From assembly GCA_027019785.1 (NCBI GenBank), contig JALUWF010000325.1:1-34909 (forward strand): a stretch of 34,909 nucleotides of DNA. Reading direction: 5' to 3'. The translations under genes were made by a program, and so were the position numbers. Below are positions 26,832 through 34,350 of the stretch, piece after piece (positions within the stretch are counted from its first letter, which is position 1; each line of letters opens with the position of its first letter). The DNA comes from Mariprofundus sp. (GTDB lineage: Bacteria; Pseudomonadota; Zetaproteobacteria; Mariprofundales; Mariprofundaceae). The notes below the pieces were generated by a model that was not told the origin of the DNA, ran no database searches, and saw only the letters and a list, made by a program, of their open reading frames with translations.

Positions 26832-26869
26832 AACCTTGCCCTTGATGCTTGACTTCTCATAATGCGGCC

Positions 26870-27496
26870 ATGTCCAGTCAATCTACCTCCAATCAAAAAT
26901 CCCCGGTAAAAAGCGGCGAGCGCGTTATCTTTATTGTGACGACCATTTTTATAATCCTTGCAGTTATCGCCTTTGGCGGTATGGAATATGTCCGGCACCA
27001 TTCCGCCAAGCCCATGTTCTCCATTACGACAAACTATCAGTTCAGTCCTGAGGCCAAGCGAGGCATGGATCTGTTTTTTCGCAAGGGCAGTTGTACAGAT
27101 TGCCATCGCGCCCTGAACAGCGGCACCAATATGGGGCCTGGCACCGATCTGGACGGCGAAGGAACCAAGCGCGGCATGGCGTGGATCTATAATTTCCTGC
27201 GCAGGCCGGAGCAGACATACAACGGCCAAACGCTGGATCACGGTCCGGGCAAGGCAGCGGCTTTTGTATCTGACTGGAAGGCAAAGGATTTGCACGCTAT
27301 TGCCGCCTTTCTTACTGCCTTACAGGCCAAAAGTGGCTCCAGTGTATCTCCGGTTCCGCCCTCCGAGCGATCCCCTTTTGTTGATTCGATGGTCAAAAAG
27401 TTTGCACCGGAAAGCTGGAAAACGGGAAAATATAAAGATATGAGAGATGACTCACGCGTGTCCAGGAAATCAGACCAACCGCAGGAGAAGCAATAA
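26870..27496 (+). CDS. Membrane-anchored monohaem cytochrome c
   Basis: The 208-aa product has an N-terminal anchor helix (about residues 18-38) and a periplasmic domain with one haem c site, C75-T-D-C78-H79, followed by GPGTDLDGEGTKRG and WIYNFLRRP, a pattern common in NorC- and CcoO-like c-type cytochromes. The usual distal Met-Pro is not obvious; H at DHGPGK lies in that area, so the sixth ligand is unclear. The charged 45-residue tail is low-complexity. ATG 26870 has no clear ribosome site, and TTG 26849 is an alternative. It overlaps the next gene as TAATG, so the pair is probably co-translated. Confidence 0.85.
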   Translation: MSSQSTSNQKSPVKSGERVIFIVTTIFIILAVIAFGGMEYVRHHSAKPMFSITTNYQFSPEAKRGMDLFFRKGSCTDCHRALNSGTNMGPGTDLDGEGTKRGMAWIYNFLRRPEQTYNGQTLDHGPGKAAAFVSDWKAKDLHAIAAFLTALQAKSGSSVSPVPPSERSPFVDSMVKKFAPESWKTGKYKDMRDDSRVSRKSDQPQEKQ

Positions 27497-28005
27497 TGAG
27501 TGGTCCAGCATGGGAGACTGACAAGGAGTTTATTCGCTACACGCTATGGTTTGTGTTCGCTTGCGTTATCTACAGTTTGATTGGATTCTCATGGGGTGCA
27601 CTGATGGGCGGCATCGCCGATTTTCGTCACTTTGTGGATCAACGTATGTTCGGCAAGCTGATTGTACGCGCCCACACCCATATTAATCTGCTGGGCTGGG
27701 TTGAGATGGCTATTTTTGCTGCGATCTATTATATCATTCCACGGCTGGTTCAGCGTCCGATTTACAGTGTAAAGCTGGTAAAAATTCATTTCTGGACGCA
27801 CAACCTCGGCCTGATCGGTATGGTGGTGTTTTTTACCATGGCGGGCGTGATCGGCGGCAATGCCAGCATGCATATTCCCCCCAATGAAGTGGAGGCGATG
27901 GTGCATCCGTGGCTGGCTCTGGTGGGCATTTTTGGCAGTATTGTGCTGCTGGCCAACTGTATCTGGGCCTACAATATTTTCCGTACGGTGCGGGGCTGGA
28001 ATTGA
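27496..28005 (+). CDS. Short haem-copper oxidase subunit I-like membrane protein
   Basis: The 169-aa product has four helices (about residues 14-37, 55-82, 98-121 and 138-160). RAHTHINLLGWVEMAIFAAI at 58-77 resembles the haem-binding helix of CcoN/NorB and NnrS-type proteins, with H60 and H62. Further histidines are H98, H102, H126 and H137. It is about one third of a normal subunit I and lacks the adjacent His pair of the copper-B site, so it cannot be a complete oxidase. With the cytochrome c in front it may form a two-subunit haem b/c quinol or electron-transfer complex. That is inference. Confidence 0.75.
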   Translation: MSGPAWETDKEFIRYTLWFVFACVIYSLIGFSWGALMGGIADFRHFVDQRMFGKLIVRAHTHINLLGWVEMAIFAAIYYIIPRLVQRPIYSVKLVKIHFWTHNLGLIGMVVFFTMAGVIGGNASMHIPPNEVEAMVHPWLALVGIFGSIVLLANCIWAYNIFRTVRGWN

Positions 28006-28565
28006 AAGCCTTGCAACGGCAATTCGTTTTAACGTGCAGTATCTTCATCGGGGTCTTTTTACTGGCCGGATGTGATCAGTTTATGATGGGCAGTGGCACT
28101 ATCCACCGTGGTCAAAAAGCGCCCGCTGTGCATACCAAGAAACTGGCCGATGTGGATGGTGATATGGGCAAGATCACCAGTTATCATTTTCCTATTCCGG
28201 GCATGTATCGTTATTCCGAAGATGAAGCGCTCAAGCTCAAGAAGCCGGTCGTGCTCGAGTTTGCTACGCCGGCACACTGCACACAGTGCGACAAGCAACT
28301 ACAACTGCTCAAGATGCTTATGCGCAAGTATGGTGACAAAATTGTTGTTGTACATTTTGATGAATATTATAATCCTGAAGCATACCGCGCCTTCAAGGTG
28401 CGCGGAGAGCCGTGGACAGTATTGCTGGATCGTTGGGGCACTGTGCGCCGCCTATACCCAGGCCGCACCCTGCGTGGAGAGCTTGATCCCGAGTTGGAGC
28501 AACTGGTGGCAGAAAAAACACCACCGGTCAAACCAGCTGTTGACGGCAAGGGTACAGGGCAATAA
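28002..28565 (+). CDS. Thioredoxin-fold lipoprotein
   Basis: With TTG 28002 as start, overlapping the previous stop as TTGA, the 187-aa product begins MKALQRQFVL and has a lipobox LLAGC with C24. The periplasmic part has KPVVLEFATPAHCTQC with the redox pair C93 and C96, then YGDKIVVVHFDEY and GEPWTVLLDRWGTVRR, a thioredoxin-like core. Such proteins reduce haem-binding or copper-binding cysteines during cytochrome and oxidase assembly. The partner here is inferred from neighbours. The start is uncertain because the ribosome site is weak. A Pro-rich tail follows. Confidence 0.75.
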   Translation: MKALQRQFVLTCSIFIGVFLLAGCDQFMMGSGTIHRGQKAPAVHTKKLADVDGDMGKITSYHFPIPGMYRYSEDEALKLKKPVVLEFATPAHCTQCDKQLQLLKMLMRKYGDKIVVVHFDEYYNPEAYRAFKVRGEPWTVLLDRWGTVRRLYPGRTLRGELDPELEQLVAEKTPPVKPAVDGKGTGQ

Positions 28566-28567
28566 TT

Positions 28568-29032
28568 TTGGCCAGACCTGTTGAAAAAGTTATTTTGCAA
28601 CCGGACAAGCGCGGCGTCGTCTGGGATCTGGTGCTATATATTCCTACGGTCAGCATACTGGCATTTTACGGTCTGACGCTCTGGTATGGTGAAAAATACA
28701 TGCCGGTGGCCTATCTGTTGTGGTTTATGGCCTGTTTTTTCACGATTGCCGGGGCCAAGCGAATTATGGGGCGTCTGTTGCTGTTGGCGCAGACGCCGGT
28801 AGCAATCGCCGTGGATAAAAAACGCAAGGCGAGCATCTACCTAAAAAACAATAAAACCATTTCGCTGATGAGTGACTTGCGATATTTCAAGGATCACGCT
28901 GGAAAGAGTTTTGGTCTGACAGGGCAGGATGCTTCAGGAAAGCAGTGGCAGTTCGTGTTTCATAAAGGGCAATTCGCATCAGAATCCGATTTTTCGCAGT
29001 TAGTCAGGGTACTGGAAGCGTTTGGTCGCTAG
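28568..29032 (+). CDS. Unknown two-helix membrane protein
   Basis: The 154-aa product has two hydrophobic helices (about residues 19-40 and 43-62), then a soluble domain of about 85 residues with AIAVDKKRKASIYLKNNKT and WQFVFHKGQFASESDF, reminiscent of small PH-like photosystem-assembly or YcxB-type membrane domains; I cannot assign a family. It starts at TTG 28568, two bases after the previous stop, and ends the four-gene cassette. No terminator hairpin is visible directly after it. Confidence 0.65.
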   Translation: MARPVEKVILQPDKRGVVWDLVLYIPTVSILAFYGLTLWYGEKYMPVAYLLWFMACFFTIAGAKRIMGRLLLLAQTPVAIAVDKKRKASIYLKNNKTISLMSDLRYFKDHAGKSFGLTGQDASGKQWQFVFHKGQFASESDFSQLVRVLEAFGR

Positions 29033-29892: not shown

Positions 29893-29920
29893 AAAAAAAG
29901 ACCTGAGCGGGTCTTTTTTT
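29893..29920. terminator. Bidirectional intrinsic terminator
   Basis: AAAAAAAGACC and GGTCTTTTTTT flank the loop TGAGCG. A- and T-tracts on both sides allow termination of the rightward peptide gene and of the leftward 61-codon gene whose stop lies at its edge. Confidence 0.85.
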
Positions 29921-30104
29921 ATTTACGATGAAGAATATCCCATGTCATCCAGCCGATCACCACCGCACCAATGCCGACGGTAGATGCAATGGCCAGGCGT
30001 TCTGTGAACCCTGAAACCAGCCCGCCGACGAACATGTGTACCGTATAGCCCAGGATAAATAGTGATGCGGTAGCGCCAATGGTGTAAGCAATAAATTTTC
30101 GCAT
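29919..30104 (-). CDS. Small two-helix membrane protein, unknown
   Basis: On the reverse strand a 61-aa product, starting MRKFIAYTIGATASLF, has two hydrophobic helices (about residues 4-25 and 36-57) and a basic end (LHRK). No Shine-Dalgarno site is evident before the ATG, which lowers confidence, but its end coincides with a bidirectional terminator and its composition is coherent. It is divergent from the cbb3 operon, sharing the upstream region. Confidence 0.5.
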   Translation of the reverse strand: MRKFIAYTIGATASLFILGYTVHMFVGGLVSGFTERLAIASTVGIGAVVIGWMTWDILHRK

Positions 30105-30466: not shown

Positions 30467-30769
30467 ATGAACAAAACGCAATTGTTATCATTTACAGTAG
30501 GAATGATCACAGGCGCTGGCAATGGTTCGGTGTTTGTGGTGTGTATGAACGATTTTATGGGGCGTGGCCCATACAGTACGGCTGGGATGTGGGGCTTTGA
30601 CGCTTACAATCCGGCTACATTTGCAGGCTTTCAGAATTTTGTAATGCTGCTGTTCGGTGTTGCATTCTGGGTGATTATGATGCTTGGCTTGAAAGGCGCG
30701 GCAGATGCCGAAGGCCAGCCGGTCATTGGTCATGATTTCGAAGCAGTTCACGATGCGACAGGGAGGTAA
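30467..30769 (+). CDS. Two-helix membrane protein of the cbb3 operon
   Basis: The 100-aa product begins MNKTQLLSFTVGM and has two hydrophobic helices (about residues 6-27 and 54-75) joined by an aromatic and glycine-rich loop (GRGPYSTAGMWGFDAYNP). I recognise no standard Cco subunit. It follows a strong AAGGAGGG and is the first gene of the oxidase operon, so an accessory or assembly role in the oxidase is likely. A polar tail of 25 residues ends the protein. Confidence 0.8.
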   Translation: MNKTQLLSFTVGMITGAGNGSVFVVCMNDFMGRGPYSTAGMWGFDAYNPATFAGFQNFVMLLFGVAFWVIMMLGLKGAADAEGQPVIGHDFEAVHDATGR

Positions 30770-30772
30770 GAG

Positions 30773-30934
30773 ATGGCACTAGTAGCTGGGTTAATGGGAA
30801 TATTACTTGCTTTTGCATCCATGTGGGTGGGCTGGTATATCATGGCACAATATCCTGCATTAAGAGATAAGAATATGGCGGAGTATGAGCGCCGCCAGGT
30901 TGAAGTCAGAAAGATTCTGGCGGGCGGAAAATGA
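30773..30934 (+). CDS. 53-residue single-helix protein of the cbb3 operon
   Basis: GGGAGG precedes the ATG, three bases after the previous stop. The peptide has one N-terminal helix (about residues 3-24, ending WVGWYIM) and a charged amphipathic tail (RDKNMAEYERRQVEVRKIL). This layout resembles CcoQ/CcoS-type small oxidase proteins but without a clear sequence signature. It is too short for many automatic gene callers. Confidence 0.75.
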   Translation: MALVAGLMGILLAFASMWVGWYIMAQYPALRDKNMAEYERRQVEVRKILAGGK

Positions 30935-30982: not shown

Positions 30983-32395
30983 ATGGGTGCATTTAAATAT
31001 TTATTTGGCAAAGAGGAGGAGATTCCGCAGGGAACTGCGGCCATCCTCTTTGGTTTTGGTTCCATCGTGTGGTTTATTATCGGCACGGGATTGGGATCTT
31101 TCAACGCGGCCAAGCTGGCGTTTCCCGATTTTGTGACGGGTAACTACGCCTTTGCATTTGGTCATATGCGTCAGGTACACGTGATGACAGTGATCTTCGG
31201 CTGGATCTGGGGTGCGTTTTGCATGGCGTTCATGTATATCACGCCGGCGCTTGGTAATACCAAGCTGTGGAGTGAGAAACTGGGCGTGTGGAATGTGCTA
31301 ACCTGGAATGTTGGGTTGGCGCTGGGTCTCTCTACACTGTGGTGTGGTATGACATCCGGTCGCGAGTATTCAGATTTTATCTGGCCGATTGATCTGTGGA
31401 TAGCATTTTTGATTGTGCTTCCGACCGGTATTAATGTCTGGATGACGATTATCAATCGTCGTACGCAGGGCATCTATACAACCAACTGGTTCTTTGCCGC
31501 TGCATCCTTTATGACAATTATCGTATTCCTGATTGGTAATCTGCCGGAGTTCTTTCATCTGACTGGTCTGAATGAGGCTTATATGACATGGTGGTTCGCC
31601 CATAATATTCTGGGCCTGCTGATCACGCCGGTGGCAGCTGCAATCAGTTATTACATTATTCCGAAGATTACTGGTAACCCGCTCTATTCTCACCGCGTGG
31701 GTCATCTGCACTTCTGGTCTCTGGTGGTATTCTACTCCACACCTGCAGCGCATCATCTAATGGGTTCGCCACTGCCGGAATGGCTGAAGTCATTCGCGTC
31801 AGTGGAAGGTGTGTTGATTTTGATTCCGGCTATGGCCTTTGTGTGTAACATCACACTAACCATGCAGGGGCGCTGGCGCATGTTTGTTGAGAACATTGAG
31901 ATTCGTTATGCGGCGACATCCAGCTTGCTGGCTATTCCGCTGAACATGCAGGGCGGCTTCCAGCAGACCCGTGCTATTAACTGGTACGTGCATGGCACCG
32001 GCTGGATTGTGGCGCATGATCACCTGGCGCTGCTGGGCTTCTCTACCTTTGCTGAGGTTTCCGCTGTGGTGTATGGCATGCAGACGCTGATGAAACGCAA
32101 ACTGTGGTCCTATTCGCTGCAAAACTTCCACTACTGGATGCTGCTTGTTGGCTTCGGTATCTACTGGACGACCATGACTATTGCCGGTCTGATTCAAGGT
32201 GCAGGCAAGGTGTTCGAGGTGCCTTATATTGACGTGGTCATTGCAGAACACCCTTATATGATCGGACGCTGGTTTGGTGGTACGATGGTGTTCATCGGCA
32301 ACATCGTATGGTTGTATAATATGTATATGACAGCCAAGTCTGGAGCCGAGGTTCCGGAAGGCTTGCTGCCGCAAGAGATTGCTTACGATCGTTGA
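30983..32395 (+). CDS. ccoN: cbb3-type cytochrome c oxidase subunit I (CcoN)
   Basis: CcoN reduces oxygen at the haem b3-copper centre with high affinity. The 470-aa, twelve-helix product has copper-B ligands H207 (WWFAHN) and H257-H258 (AAHHLM), the cross-linking tyrosine Y251 six residues before that pair, haem b3 and b ligands H345 and H347 (AHDHLAL), and the first low-spin ligand H66 in HMRQVHVMT. This numbering is the same as I recall for the Pseudomonas stutzeri enzyme, so the active site appears complete. TAAGGAGGA lies before the ATG. Confidence 0.96.
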   Translation: MGAFKYLFGKEEEIPQGTAAILFGFGSIVWFIIGTGLGSFNAAKLAFPDFVTGNYAFAFGHMRQVHVMTVIFGWIWGAFCMAFMYITPALGNTKLWSEKLGVWNVLTWNVGLALGLSTLWCGMTSGREYSDFIWPIDLWIAFLIVLPTGINVWMTIINRRTQGIYTTNWFFAAASFMTIIVFLIGNLPEFFHLTGLNEAYMTWWFAHNILGLLITPVAAAISYYIIPKITGNPLYSHRVGHLHFWSLVVFYSTPAAHHLMGSPLPEWLKSFASVEGVLILIPAMAFVCNITLTMQGRWRMFVENIEIRYAATSSLLAIPLNMQGGFQQTRAINWYVHGTGWIVAHDHLALLGFSTFAEVSAVVYGMQTLMKRKLWSYSLQNFHYWMLLVGFGIYWTTMTIAGLIQGAGKVFEVPYIDVVIAEHPYMIGRWFGGTMVFIGNIVWLYNMYMTAKSGAEVPEGLLPQEIAYDR

Positions 32396-32544: not shown

Positions 32545-33504
32545 GTGGCATTTAGAGAATATAAGATGGGTGGGATGTTCTTCGGGTTTGCATTGGGTTT
32601 TTCAATGTTGATTACGATCTTCTTTCCAACAATCTACATTACAAACCATGGTGCACCGAATGATTATGGCCTGGATAAGACCATGACCTACGGTCATAAT
32701 AACGGTTTTACGTATAGTGATCCGTTTCTGAAACAGTGGCATAAGCCGATTAAGGCTGTGCTGAGCAAAGATCCAGTCACAGGCCAGGCGTTTGCCAAAC
32801 CGATGACAGTCTATGTGTACAGGGCAGGTGACCCATTCCCTAGTACAATCACGCATCCGCGTGTGCTGGCTGGTGAAGGTGTGATCGCTTTGAGTAAGTC
32901 AAAAGGCAAAATCGAAGCGGCTGACGATTCCAAAGGTGCCGTGTTTACATTAGCCAATGGTGCTTATAAGGGCAAAGAGCTCTCATATATTGTCGACCTG
33001 ACCGCTACACGTAACTGGACACCTACCCAGGTGCTGGCTGCAGTGCCTGTAGCACAGCAGTCCCATGCTTCACAGGGCCGTACGCTGTATATGCGTGAGG
33101 GCTGCTGGTGGTGTCACACATTGCTGCCTGAAGAGACTCAGGACTGGGAGACATTTGGTCGTCCCCCACTGGTTGGCGATTTGAATGGTCAGTCGCCGAC
33201 GACATTTGGTTCCGACCGCAAGGCCCCGGATCTGCTGCATGTGGGTAGCCGTAACTCTTCGCGTGAATGGATTACTATGCATCTGTTTAATCCGCGTTTG
33301 GTACAGCCGCACTCCATCATGCCTCGCTTTGATTATTTGTGGGGCGACAAGGATGCCAACGGTAAAACTATCAACTATACCAAGTGGCGTAAGGATTATC
33401 TGGAATATGCTGCCGGCAAAACGATTTACCCGCCTGAGGTTCCAACCCCGGCCAAGAGCAGTGAAGCATCGCATCTGATCGAATACCTGCTCGATCTGAA
33501 ATAA
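32545..33504 (+). CDS. ccoO: cbb3-type oxidase monohaem cytochrome c subunit (CcoO-like)
   Basis: The 319-aa product has an N-terminal anchor (about residues 9-33) and one haem c site C187-W-W-C190-H191 (REGCWWCHTL), the axial Met259 in HSIMPRF, and KAPDLLHVGSRNSSREW, which all match CcoO. It receives electrons and passes them to CcoN. It is longer than usual CcoO (about 200-240 aa) because of a segment of over 100 residues between the anchor and the haem motif (about 60-170). It starts with GTG behind GGGAGGAG. Confidence 0.93.
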   Translation: MAFREYKMGGMFFGFALGFSMLITIFFPTIYITNHGAPNDYGLDKTMTYGHNNGFTYSDPFLKQWHKPIKAVLSKDPVTGQAFAKPMTVYVYRAGDPFPSTITHPRVLAGEGVIALSKSKGKIEAADDSKGAVFTLANGAYKGKELSYIVDLTATRNWTPTQVLAAVPVAQQSHASQGRTLYMREGCWWCHTLLPEETQDWETFGRPPLVGDLNGQSPTTFGSDRKAPDLLHVGSRNSSREWITMHLFNPRLVQPHSIMPRFDYLWGDKDANGKTINYTKWRKDYLEYAAGKTIYPPEVPTPAKSSEASHLIEYLLDLK

Positions 33505-33519
33505 GGGAGGACAAATAAA

Positions 33520-34170
33520 ATGGGATTGAGACTGGATCGACCACTATACTCGCTCACCACGCATGACGAGAACCTGTCAGCTCAGCATATCTGGGAATAT
33601 GAAAGCCTGGGTGGCATTAAAGAGAACAATAACCCGGTGCCGGCACCAATTGCCGTGTTGCTGGTGCTTATTGTAACTACTGCCTTCATGCTGACATTTC
33701 CGCTTTGGGGGCAACGGCCTACTGCGGCCATTTATTCAGATTATGTTGATCTGCTGAAGTCGCCCGAAGTACAACAGGTGCTGGACAACAAGGATCTGAC
33801 GCCCTATCAGTCGGACGCACAAGCCATGAAGCTGATTGAAGATCGCCTGAGCCATTTTCCATCGCCGTATGCATTTCAGCGTAAACAGCATATTATGACA
33901 ATGGATCACCTGCGCTACCTGGCACCGAAGATCACTAAACTACGTGAATCAGGTGCTGATATGGAGCAGTATTCTATCATTGGGCCTAATATTGTGCGGC
34001 AGAACTTCTTCCGACTGGTTGATGGAAAAATCGTGGCCAAACAACCATGGTGGGATGCTGGCTATACCATTGATATCTTCTATGTGATCTATTTCTTTGC
34101 TGTTGTGTTCTGCCTGATTAAGGGGCTGCCGCCAACATCATGGGAACCGGATCACACCAAAGCACATTGA
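33520..34170 (+). CDS. CcoP-like subunit without haem-binding motifs
   Basis: The 216-aa product has HIWEYESLGGIKENNNPVPA at residues 23-42, recalling the CcoP N-terminus (HxWDG-x-IKELNNPLP), then a helix at about 43-63, a periplasmic region of about 115 residues, and a second helix at about 183-202. There is no CXXCH and only one cysteine (C198), so it cannot carry the two haems of normal CcoP. It could be a structural replacement. GGGAGGA precedes its ATG, 15 nt after ccoO. Confidence 0.8.
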   Translation: MGLRLDRPLYSLTTHDENLSAQHIWEYESLGGIKENNNPVPAPIAVLLVLIVTTAFMLTFPLWGQRPTAAIYSDYVDLLKSPEVQQVLDNKDLTPYQSDAQAMKLIEDRLSHFPSPYAFQRKQHIMTMDHLRYLAPKITKLRESGADMEQYSIIGPNIVRQNFFRLVDGKIVAKQPWWDAGYTIDIFYVIYFFAVVFCLIKGLPPTSWEPDHTKAH

Positions 34171-34215: not shown

Positions 34216-34350
34216 ATGATTGATTTGGATATGCCGACTGCAGCTGGATTTGGTGTGATTTGTATTGCCTTCTTTGCACCCTATTTTTATGCATTTTTTC
34301 TTGATAAATGGAAAAAGGACACACCTGATCCAAGACGTCGTACATTTTAA
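34216..34350 (+). CDS. 44-residue single-helix protein ending the cbb3 operon
   Basis: AAGGAGA lies 5 nt before ATG. The peptide starts MIDLDMPTAAGF, then a helix (about residues 12-29, rich in Phe and Tyr) and a basic tail (KWKKDTPDPRRRTF). Layout and position fit a CcoQ/CcoM-like small oxidase subunit, but no sequence signature proves it. A strong terminator follows. Confidence 0.75.
   Translation: MIDLDMPTAAGFGVICIAFFAPYFYAFFLDKWKKDTPDPRRRTF

Follow-up and report, generated by a model that had tools for sequence, protein, structure and literature searches.

A haem-free homologue of CcoP in the operon of a divergent cbb3-type oxidase from Mariprofundus

Gene content of the locus

The window considered here, meaning the whole stretch of DNA that was analysed, comprises 34,909 nucleotides from a genome of the genus Mariprofundus. 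Near the end of the contig, between positions 30467 and 34350, the forward strand carries six genes in the order X100 - X53 - ccoN - ccoO - P3 - Q44 (Table 1). The subject of this work is P3. It begins with an ATG 15 bases past ccoO and has a good ribosome-binding site (GGGAGG) upstream. It is a real gene and not a chance open reading frame. A scan for promoters and terminators returned counts close to those expected from shuffled sequence and was uninformative.

Table 1. Features of the window around and upstream of the P3 gene
Feature	Position	Strand	Remarks
Membrane-anchored monohaem cytochrome c, upstream module	26849..27496	+	Candidate electron donor
169-aa four-helix protein, homologous only to the last third of COX1/CcoN	27496..28005	+	HxH haem-ligand motif kept; COX1 56.2 bits, profile 309-434
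Thioredoxin-fold protein, upstream module	27909..28565	+	Weak thioredoxin-family matches; in 37/54 upstream neighbourhoods; true start probably after 28005
Conserved membrane protein, upstream module	28568..29032	+	In 39/54 upstream neighbourhoods
60-aa small membrane protein	29919..30104	-	Opposite strand; conserved at the same place
X100, small two-helix protein upstream of ccoN	30467..30769	+	Conserved; 62/62 loci with room upstream
X53, small single-helix protein directly upstream of ccoN	30773..30934	+	Conserved; 52/66 loci with room upstream
CcoN, catalytic subunit	30983..32395	+	Haem/CuB His and Tyr251 retained; Gln in place of Glu323
CcoO, monohaem	32545..33504	+	One CXXCH; conserved MP motif; extra beta-rich domain of ~105 residues
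P3, 216 aa	33520..34170	+	Haem-free CcoP homologue
Q44, 44-aa single-helix protein	34216..34350	+	CcoQ-like position; tblastn match in 63/79 loci with room downstream (misses expected for so short a protein)

The oxidase cluster continues downstream on another contig of the same genome, C232. The genes 3' of the oxidase (C232:2235-7151) include those for a protein similar to the formylglycine-generating enzyme and a large spermidine-synthase-like membrane protein, and their synteny is kept in several Zetaproteobacteria. The same contig holds a second copy of the 169-residue relative of COX1 (C232:11090-11599). Nearly all of 11 genomes checked have two such genes, in most cases close to the cbb3 cluster. 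Between distant genomes the upstream copy retains 66-84% identity, more than P3 does. The protein is possibly a haem b protein or an assembly factor.

Distribution and conservation of P3

P3 was found in 18 of 120 genomes drawn from the phylum, with the same gene order in all of them. An alignment of P3 from these 18 genomes was then used to scan GTDB species genomes, yielding 150 relatives. The best 80 of the 150, which are about 40-57% identical to the window P3, make up the orthologue set used here. They come from Zetaproteobacteria (Mariprofundaceae), Gallionellaceae (Gallionella and Candidatus Nitrotoga fabula), Ferrovum and uncultured gammaproteobacterial MAGs. Not one of these best 80 has a CXXCH motif, and it is also missing from 18 P3 orthologues that partly overlap the 80. 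A search of plasmids with P3 gave no match.

The neighbourhood is conserved as well. Where the contig is long enough to tell, P3 is preceded by ccoO in 74/74 loci and by ccoN in 67/67. The accompanying proteins are about 72-82% (CcoN) and 50-60% (CcoO) identical to those of the window. A monohaem cytochrome c gene lies about 0.9 kb downstream of P3 in 69 of 72 loci. There are loci (L089, L091 and L095) in which P3 is present and this gene is missing together with the next two. A survey of neighbourhoods in Zetaproteobacteria had been proposed with the initial annotation. It reveals P3 as a regular member of the branch and not an oddity. About half of the Zetaproteobacteria with P3 also have a separate, ordinary ccoNOP operon. 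The operons of an entire branch of cbb3 oxidases regularly include a haem-free P3, which is therefore no peculiarity of a single genome.

P3 and the membrane segment of CcoP

The initial annotation described P3 as a CcoP-like subunit devoid of haem, in which a second helix and a periplasmic domain of about 115 residues had been added. Both parts of that description hold. P3 contains the sequence IKENNNPVP without any CXXCH. It consists of a FixP_N-like segment (residues ~25-64) that includes Glu35, a helix at 42-63, a periplasmic domain (~65-177), a further helix at 180-200 and a short cytoplasmic tail. Hydropathy indicates two helices, at 44-62 and 182-200. The AlphaFold model (mean pLDDT 86.5) agrees, with a helix at 42-63 followed by a periplasmic helix bundle, beta hairpins and a helix at 180-200. 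In the periplasmic domain pLDDT reaches 98 in blocks, and most of the periplasmic helices exceed 90.

How closely is P3 related to CcoP? In Pfam the window P3 matches only FixP_N, a family that covers the membrane segment of CcoP, and at 14 bits this match falls under the curated cut-off of 24.9. On its own, then, the window protein does not pass the HMM search against CcoP that had been suggested as a check. However, all 67 aligned orthologues match FixP_N when scanned singly (E up to 1), and those from several genomes (G104, G080, G048, G033 and others) lie above its gathering cut-off. TIGR00782 (ccoP) is matched by 48 of the 67 and the next commonest family by three. FixH is not among the families that these 67 members match. 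When P3 is compared with eight dihaem CcoP by hhalign, the P3 motif GGI-x-E-NNN-P-x-P aligns with GI-x-E-L-xN-P-x-P of CcoP (E 0.0016). The hhalign probability is only 16%, because the shared stretch is short.

The acidic residue within this stretch is conserved throughout. Glu35 is invariant in 67/67 P3 members, and its counterpart is equally invariant among the aligned CcoP. The two share column 14 of the FixP_N profile (P3 residue 32 corresponds to column 11, CcoP residue 14 to column 4). We take the counterpart of Glu35 to be Glu49 of the Vibrio cholerae and Pseudomonas stutzeri CcoP, where protons enter the KC channel. Because it has the FixP_N segment and lacks the two CXXCH haem domains, P3 is a haem-free homologue of CcoP rather than a CcoP.

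A Foldseek search of the PDB with the P3 model gave no match. As a control, the CcoO model retrieved cbb3 subunit O chains at ranks 1-5 with probabilities of 0.99-1.00, so the approach works on such material. Sequence searches of the PDB, whether with the single P3 protein or with a P3 profile, gave no real match either. With no PDB match for the fold, the resemblance to CcoP rests on about 35 residues of sequence. A lack of structural similarity had been named as a reason to abandon the CcoP assignment, and the outcome is divided: the periplasmic domain has no PDB counterpart, but sequence comparison shows the membrane segment to be homologous.

Two other proteins deserve mention here. A free-standing protein of 121 residues combines a P3-like periplasmic domain with a helix of its own, and adjoins a 1959-residue CHAT-domain protein (L019 = G048:C27:10528-10902; L055:6493-6858). 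On the Paraburkholderia plasmid pBN2 (L152:7994-8581) a monohaem protein follows a divergent ccoNO pair. Its entry segment looks CcoP-like by eye and has no FixP_N match. This protein may represent a step from dihaem CcoP towards P3.

The partner subunits CcoN and CcoO

The initial annotation credited CcoN with a full set of ligands. This is true of the residues that bind haem b, haem b3 and CuB (His66, His207, His257, His258, His345 and His347) and of the cross-linking Tyr251 in helix VII, all of which are invariant in P3-type and canonical enzymes. However, all of the P3-type clade has Gln in place of Glu323 (P. stutzeri numbering), a conserved residue of canonical cbb3 CcoN. Gln at this position is also found in two other non-standard CcoN. 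Ser240, presumably a residue of the KC channel, is Gly here, a point against the role proposed for P3 below.

P3-type CcoN is 25-31% identical to the canonical enzymes. The window protein scores 218.8 bits against TIGR00780 (ccoN), where the equivalog cut-off is 583.15, and is therefore a divergent relative and not an equivalog of canonical ccoN. In a CcoN tree the P3-type clade is separated from canonical CcoN, to which the distal type found in these organisms belongs, in all bootstrap trees (100/100), with branches long enough that the exact neighbours of the clade are unsure.

CcoO, which had been called monohaem, does have a single CXXCH. It matches FixO with 66.1 bits (cut-off 29.6) and lies under the equivalog cut-off of TIGR00781. 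The FixO match is confined to residues 176-270. Its limits and the structural model show an extra, conserved beta-rich domain of about 105 residues, placed after the N-terminal helix and ahead of the haem domain, that is absent from canonical CcoO. Nearly all complete orthologues have 311-321 residues and one CXXCH. With the new domain of P3 and the extra domain of CcoO, both donor-facing subunits have an altered periplasmic face.

Other oxidases in genomes with P3

A normal dihaem CcoP encoded elsewhere had also been named as a reason to abandon the assignment, but none was found in this genome or in eight more Zetaproteobacteria with P3. A search for the FixP_N of canonical CcoP in this genome, which is 94.6% complete, came back empty. 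Among 18 Zetaproteobacteria with P3, nine have a separate canonical CcoP (68-77 bits) and nine, including this one, do not; the latter include genomes that are 95-99% complete. Canonical FixP_N was not found in Ferrovum myxofaciens P3G or Nitrotoga fabula either. Wherever it was inspected, the canonical CcoP of a genome with P3 is dihaem and belongs to its own ccoNOP operon.

This genome, Nitrotoga fabula and three further genomes each have a single full-length COX1 gene, the P3-type ccoN. A cytochrome bd gene is present in the Mariprofundus genome as well. As the only haem-copper oxidase found in this Mariprofundus and in Nitrotoga fabula, the P3-type enzyme is likely to be the main respiratory enzyme of iron and nitrite oxidisers.

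A proposed role for P3

In a canonical cbb3 oxidase CcoP holds both the electron entrance, in the form of two haems, and the proton entrance, in the form of one Glu. What if only the second of these has been retained? From the missing haem motif, the homology, the conserved Glu, the operon, the active-site ligands and the lack of any other CcoP in many genomes, we infer that P3 would belong to the complex and occupy the CcoP site. The reading that we favour, and consider fairly probable, is that P3 descends from CcoP and serves as a subunit in a separate branch of the C family. It would have lost its haems, kept the membrane segment for proton entry and left electrons to pass directly to the haem of CcoO.

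The steps might be as follows. Both c-type haems would have been lost and the haem domain exchanged for an unrelated periplasmic domain of about 115 residues and a second helix, while the membrane segment by which CcoP packs against CcoN would remain. The protons consumed in O2 reduction would reach CcoN by way of Glu35 of P3. Electrons would travel from cytochromes encoded at the locus to the single haem c of CcoO, then to haem b and finally to b3/CuB. The putative donors are two membrane-anchored monohaem cytochromes, one in the upstream module and one downstream (C232:1320-1838), and a dihaem cytochrome of the c4 type (C232:12495-13244). A V. cholerae cbb3 cut down to the membrane part of CcoP reportedly still assembles and uses the KC channel, and is said to have lost activity with cytochrome c4, its natural donor.

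A more specific version is that the two jobs of CcoP have been split. P3 would provide the proton entrance and a new docking domain for donors, and cytochromes specific to lithotrophy would deliver electrons to the single haem of CcoO. This version could equally well turn out right or wrong. An enzyme that drops the electron entrance and keeps the proton entrance would allow the two roles to be studied apart, and reading P3 as a proton entrance gives it a testable mechanism.

Alternative explanations

Perhaps the complex still has a two-haem input. The c4-type dihaem cytochrome, which is Cyc1-like, might be held permanently on the periplasmic domain of P3 and act as a detached CcoP haem domain. 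As regards P3 itself this is compatible with the explanation given above. The cytochrome is encoded in the same cluster, about 12.5 kb into C232, and in the PDB it is related to cytochrome c-552 and to cytochromes c4, one of the latter solved with a P. aeruginosa bc1-cbb3 supercomplex. In Sideroxydans ES-1 a Cyc1 homologue is linked to a cbb3 cluster and goes up after addition of Fe(II) (PMC8788666). However, the cytochrome is nearer to soluble c4 than to CcoP (23% identity over 92 residues), and its gene is several genes away from ccoNO-P3. We consider a permanent association rather doubtful. Descent of this cytochrome from the haem domain of a CcoP is not supported, given its closer relation to cytochrome c4.

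Another possibility is that P3 is not a permanent subunit. It could serve solely in assembly, as CcoH does, with a helix that resembles that of CcoP and replaces it transiently. CcoH is a small protein that lies beside CcoN when bound to cbb3 and forms cross-links with CcoP (PMC7876108), and PDB entry 9g6b is titled as a cbb3-2 NOH complex. FixH, the assembly factor CcoH, is absent from 11/11 tested genomes that have P3 alone, including this one, and present in 4/4 tested genomes that have both P3 and canonical CcoP. Its role in the former may therefore have been taken by something else. However, P3 matches the FixP_N and ccoP models and not FixH, and its gene sits between ccoO and the CcoQ-like gene. 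A better candidate for the CcoH counterpart in genomes without FixH may be a smaller two-helix relative of P3 that has no periplasmic domain (L020-L024; C232:8421-8831; hhalign probability 94.8% to P3). Its gene comes directly after that of a FixG-like polyferredoxin, which is the position of FixH in Sinorhizobium meliloti. That P3 itself is an assembly factor thus appears unlikely.

Could P3 be unrelated to CcoP, with GIxENNNPxP arising by convergence as an amphipathic entry to a membrane helix? The match is confined to some 35 residues, hhalign gives full-length P3 a low probability and the fold has no counterpart in the PDB. However, convergence is very improbable in view of the FixP_N and ccoP matches without a comparable competitor, the same place in the operon and the invariant Glu in register.

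Lastly, the idea that the operon encodes a C-family reductase for NO or another substrate rather than for O2, which the low identity of CcoN to canonical enzymes, the replacement of Glu323 and the remote clade might suggest, is hardly credible: this is the only full-length haem-copper enzyme of aerobic lithotrophs such as Nitrotoga, and NO reductases are known to lack the cross-linking Tyr, so that we reject an NO reductase on the invariant Tyr251.

Relationship to described cbb3 oxidases

The P3-type enzyme shares with canonical CcoNOQP/FixNOQP (P. stutzeri, 3mk7; P. aeruginosa, 8smr) the CcoN ligands and Tyr, a monohaem CcoO whose haem domain is conserved, and a FixP_N segment with its Glu. 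It differs in that its CcoP homologue is haem-free and has another periplasmic domain and a second helix. Further differences are the additional CcoO domain, Gln in place of Glu323, the small proteins X100 and X53, and the lack of FixH in genomes with P3 alone. The fused CcoNOP of the Nitrospina type was considered as the same thing and rejected, because the c-type haems are kept there (PMC3578206).

Proximal and distal types of cbb3 have been described in Zetaproteobacteria (PMC7029218), Gallionellaceae (PMC10734462) and Sideroxydans ES-1 (PMC8788666), the last of these papers reporting that the two types differ in subunit composition and that the proximal ccoNO reaches higher levels in culture with Fe(II)-citrate. 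The proximal subtree (Ducluzeau et al., 2008, as applied in these papers) is likewise a second, divergent type of ccoN/ccoO within the same organisms. The P3-type branch is probably this published proximal cbb3, our own tree showing only its separation from canonical CcoN. A haem-free CcoP homologue is not mentioned in the accessible parts of the three reports named above, and in the open-access literature we found no description of P3 as a haem-free CcoP.

P3 nevertheless seems to have left traces in published annotations. In Ferrovum strain JA12 only subunits I and II were found, and co-localised c-type cytochromes were proposed as substitutes for subunit III (PMC4725956). The available sections of that account contain no mention of a P3 orthologue, but P3 is present in other Ferrovum genomes (L120 and L124 among them) and accounts for the subunit III missing from the published operon annotation. 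The ccoNOP genes of strain PV-1 were listed as SPV1_10291, 10301 and 10306 (PMC3179512). Judging from the gene order, the CcoP of this list is most likely the monohaem cytochrome encoded downstream, with P3 passed over as 10296, so P3 probably accounts for the locus tags skipping the gene after ccoO. The iron and nitrite oxidisers that have the P3-type enzyme are ecologically important.

An artificial analogue is the engineered V. cholerae cbb3 from which the CcoP haem domain was reportedly removed (Ahn et al., 2015). P3 differs from that truncation in being natural and in having a new periplasmic domain.
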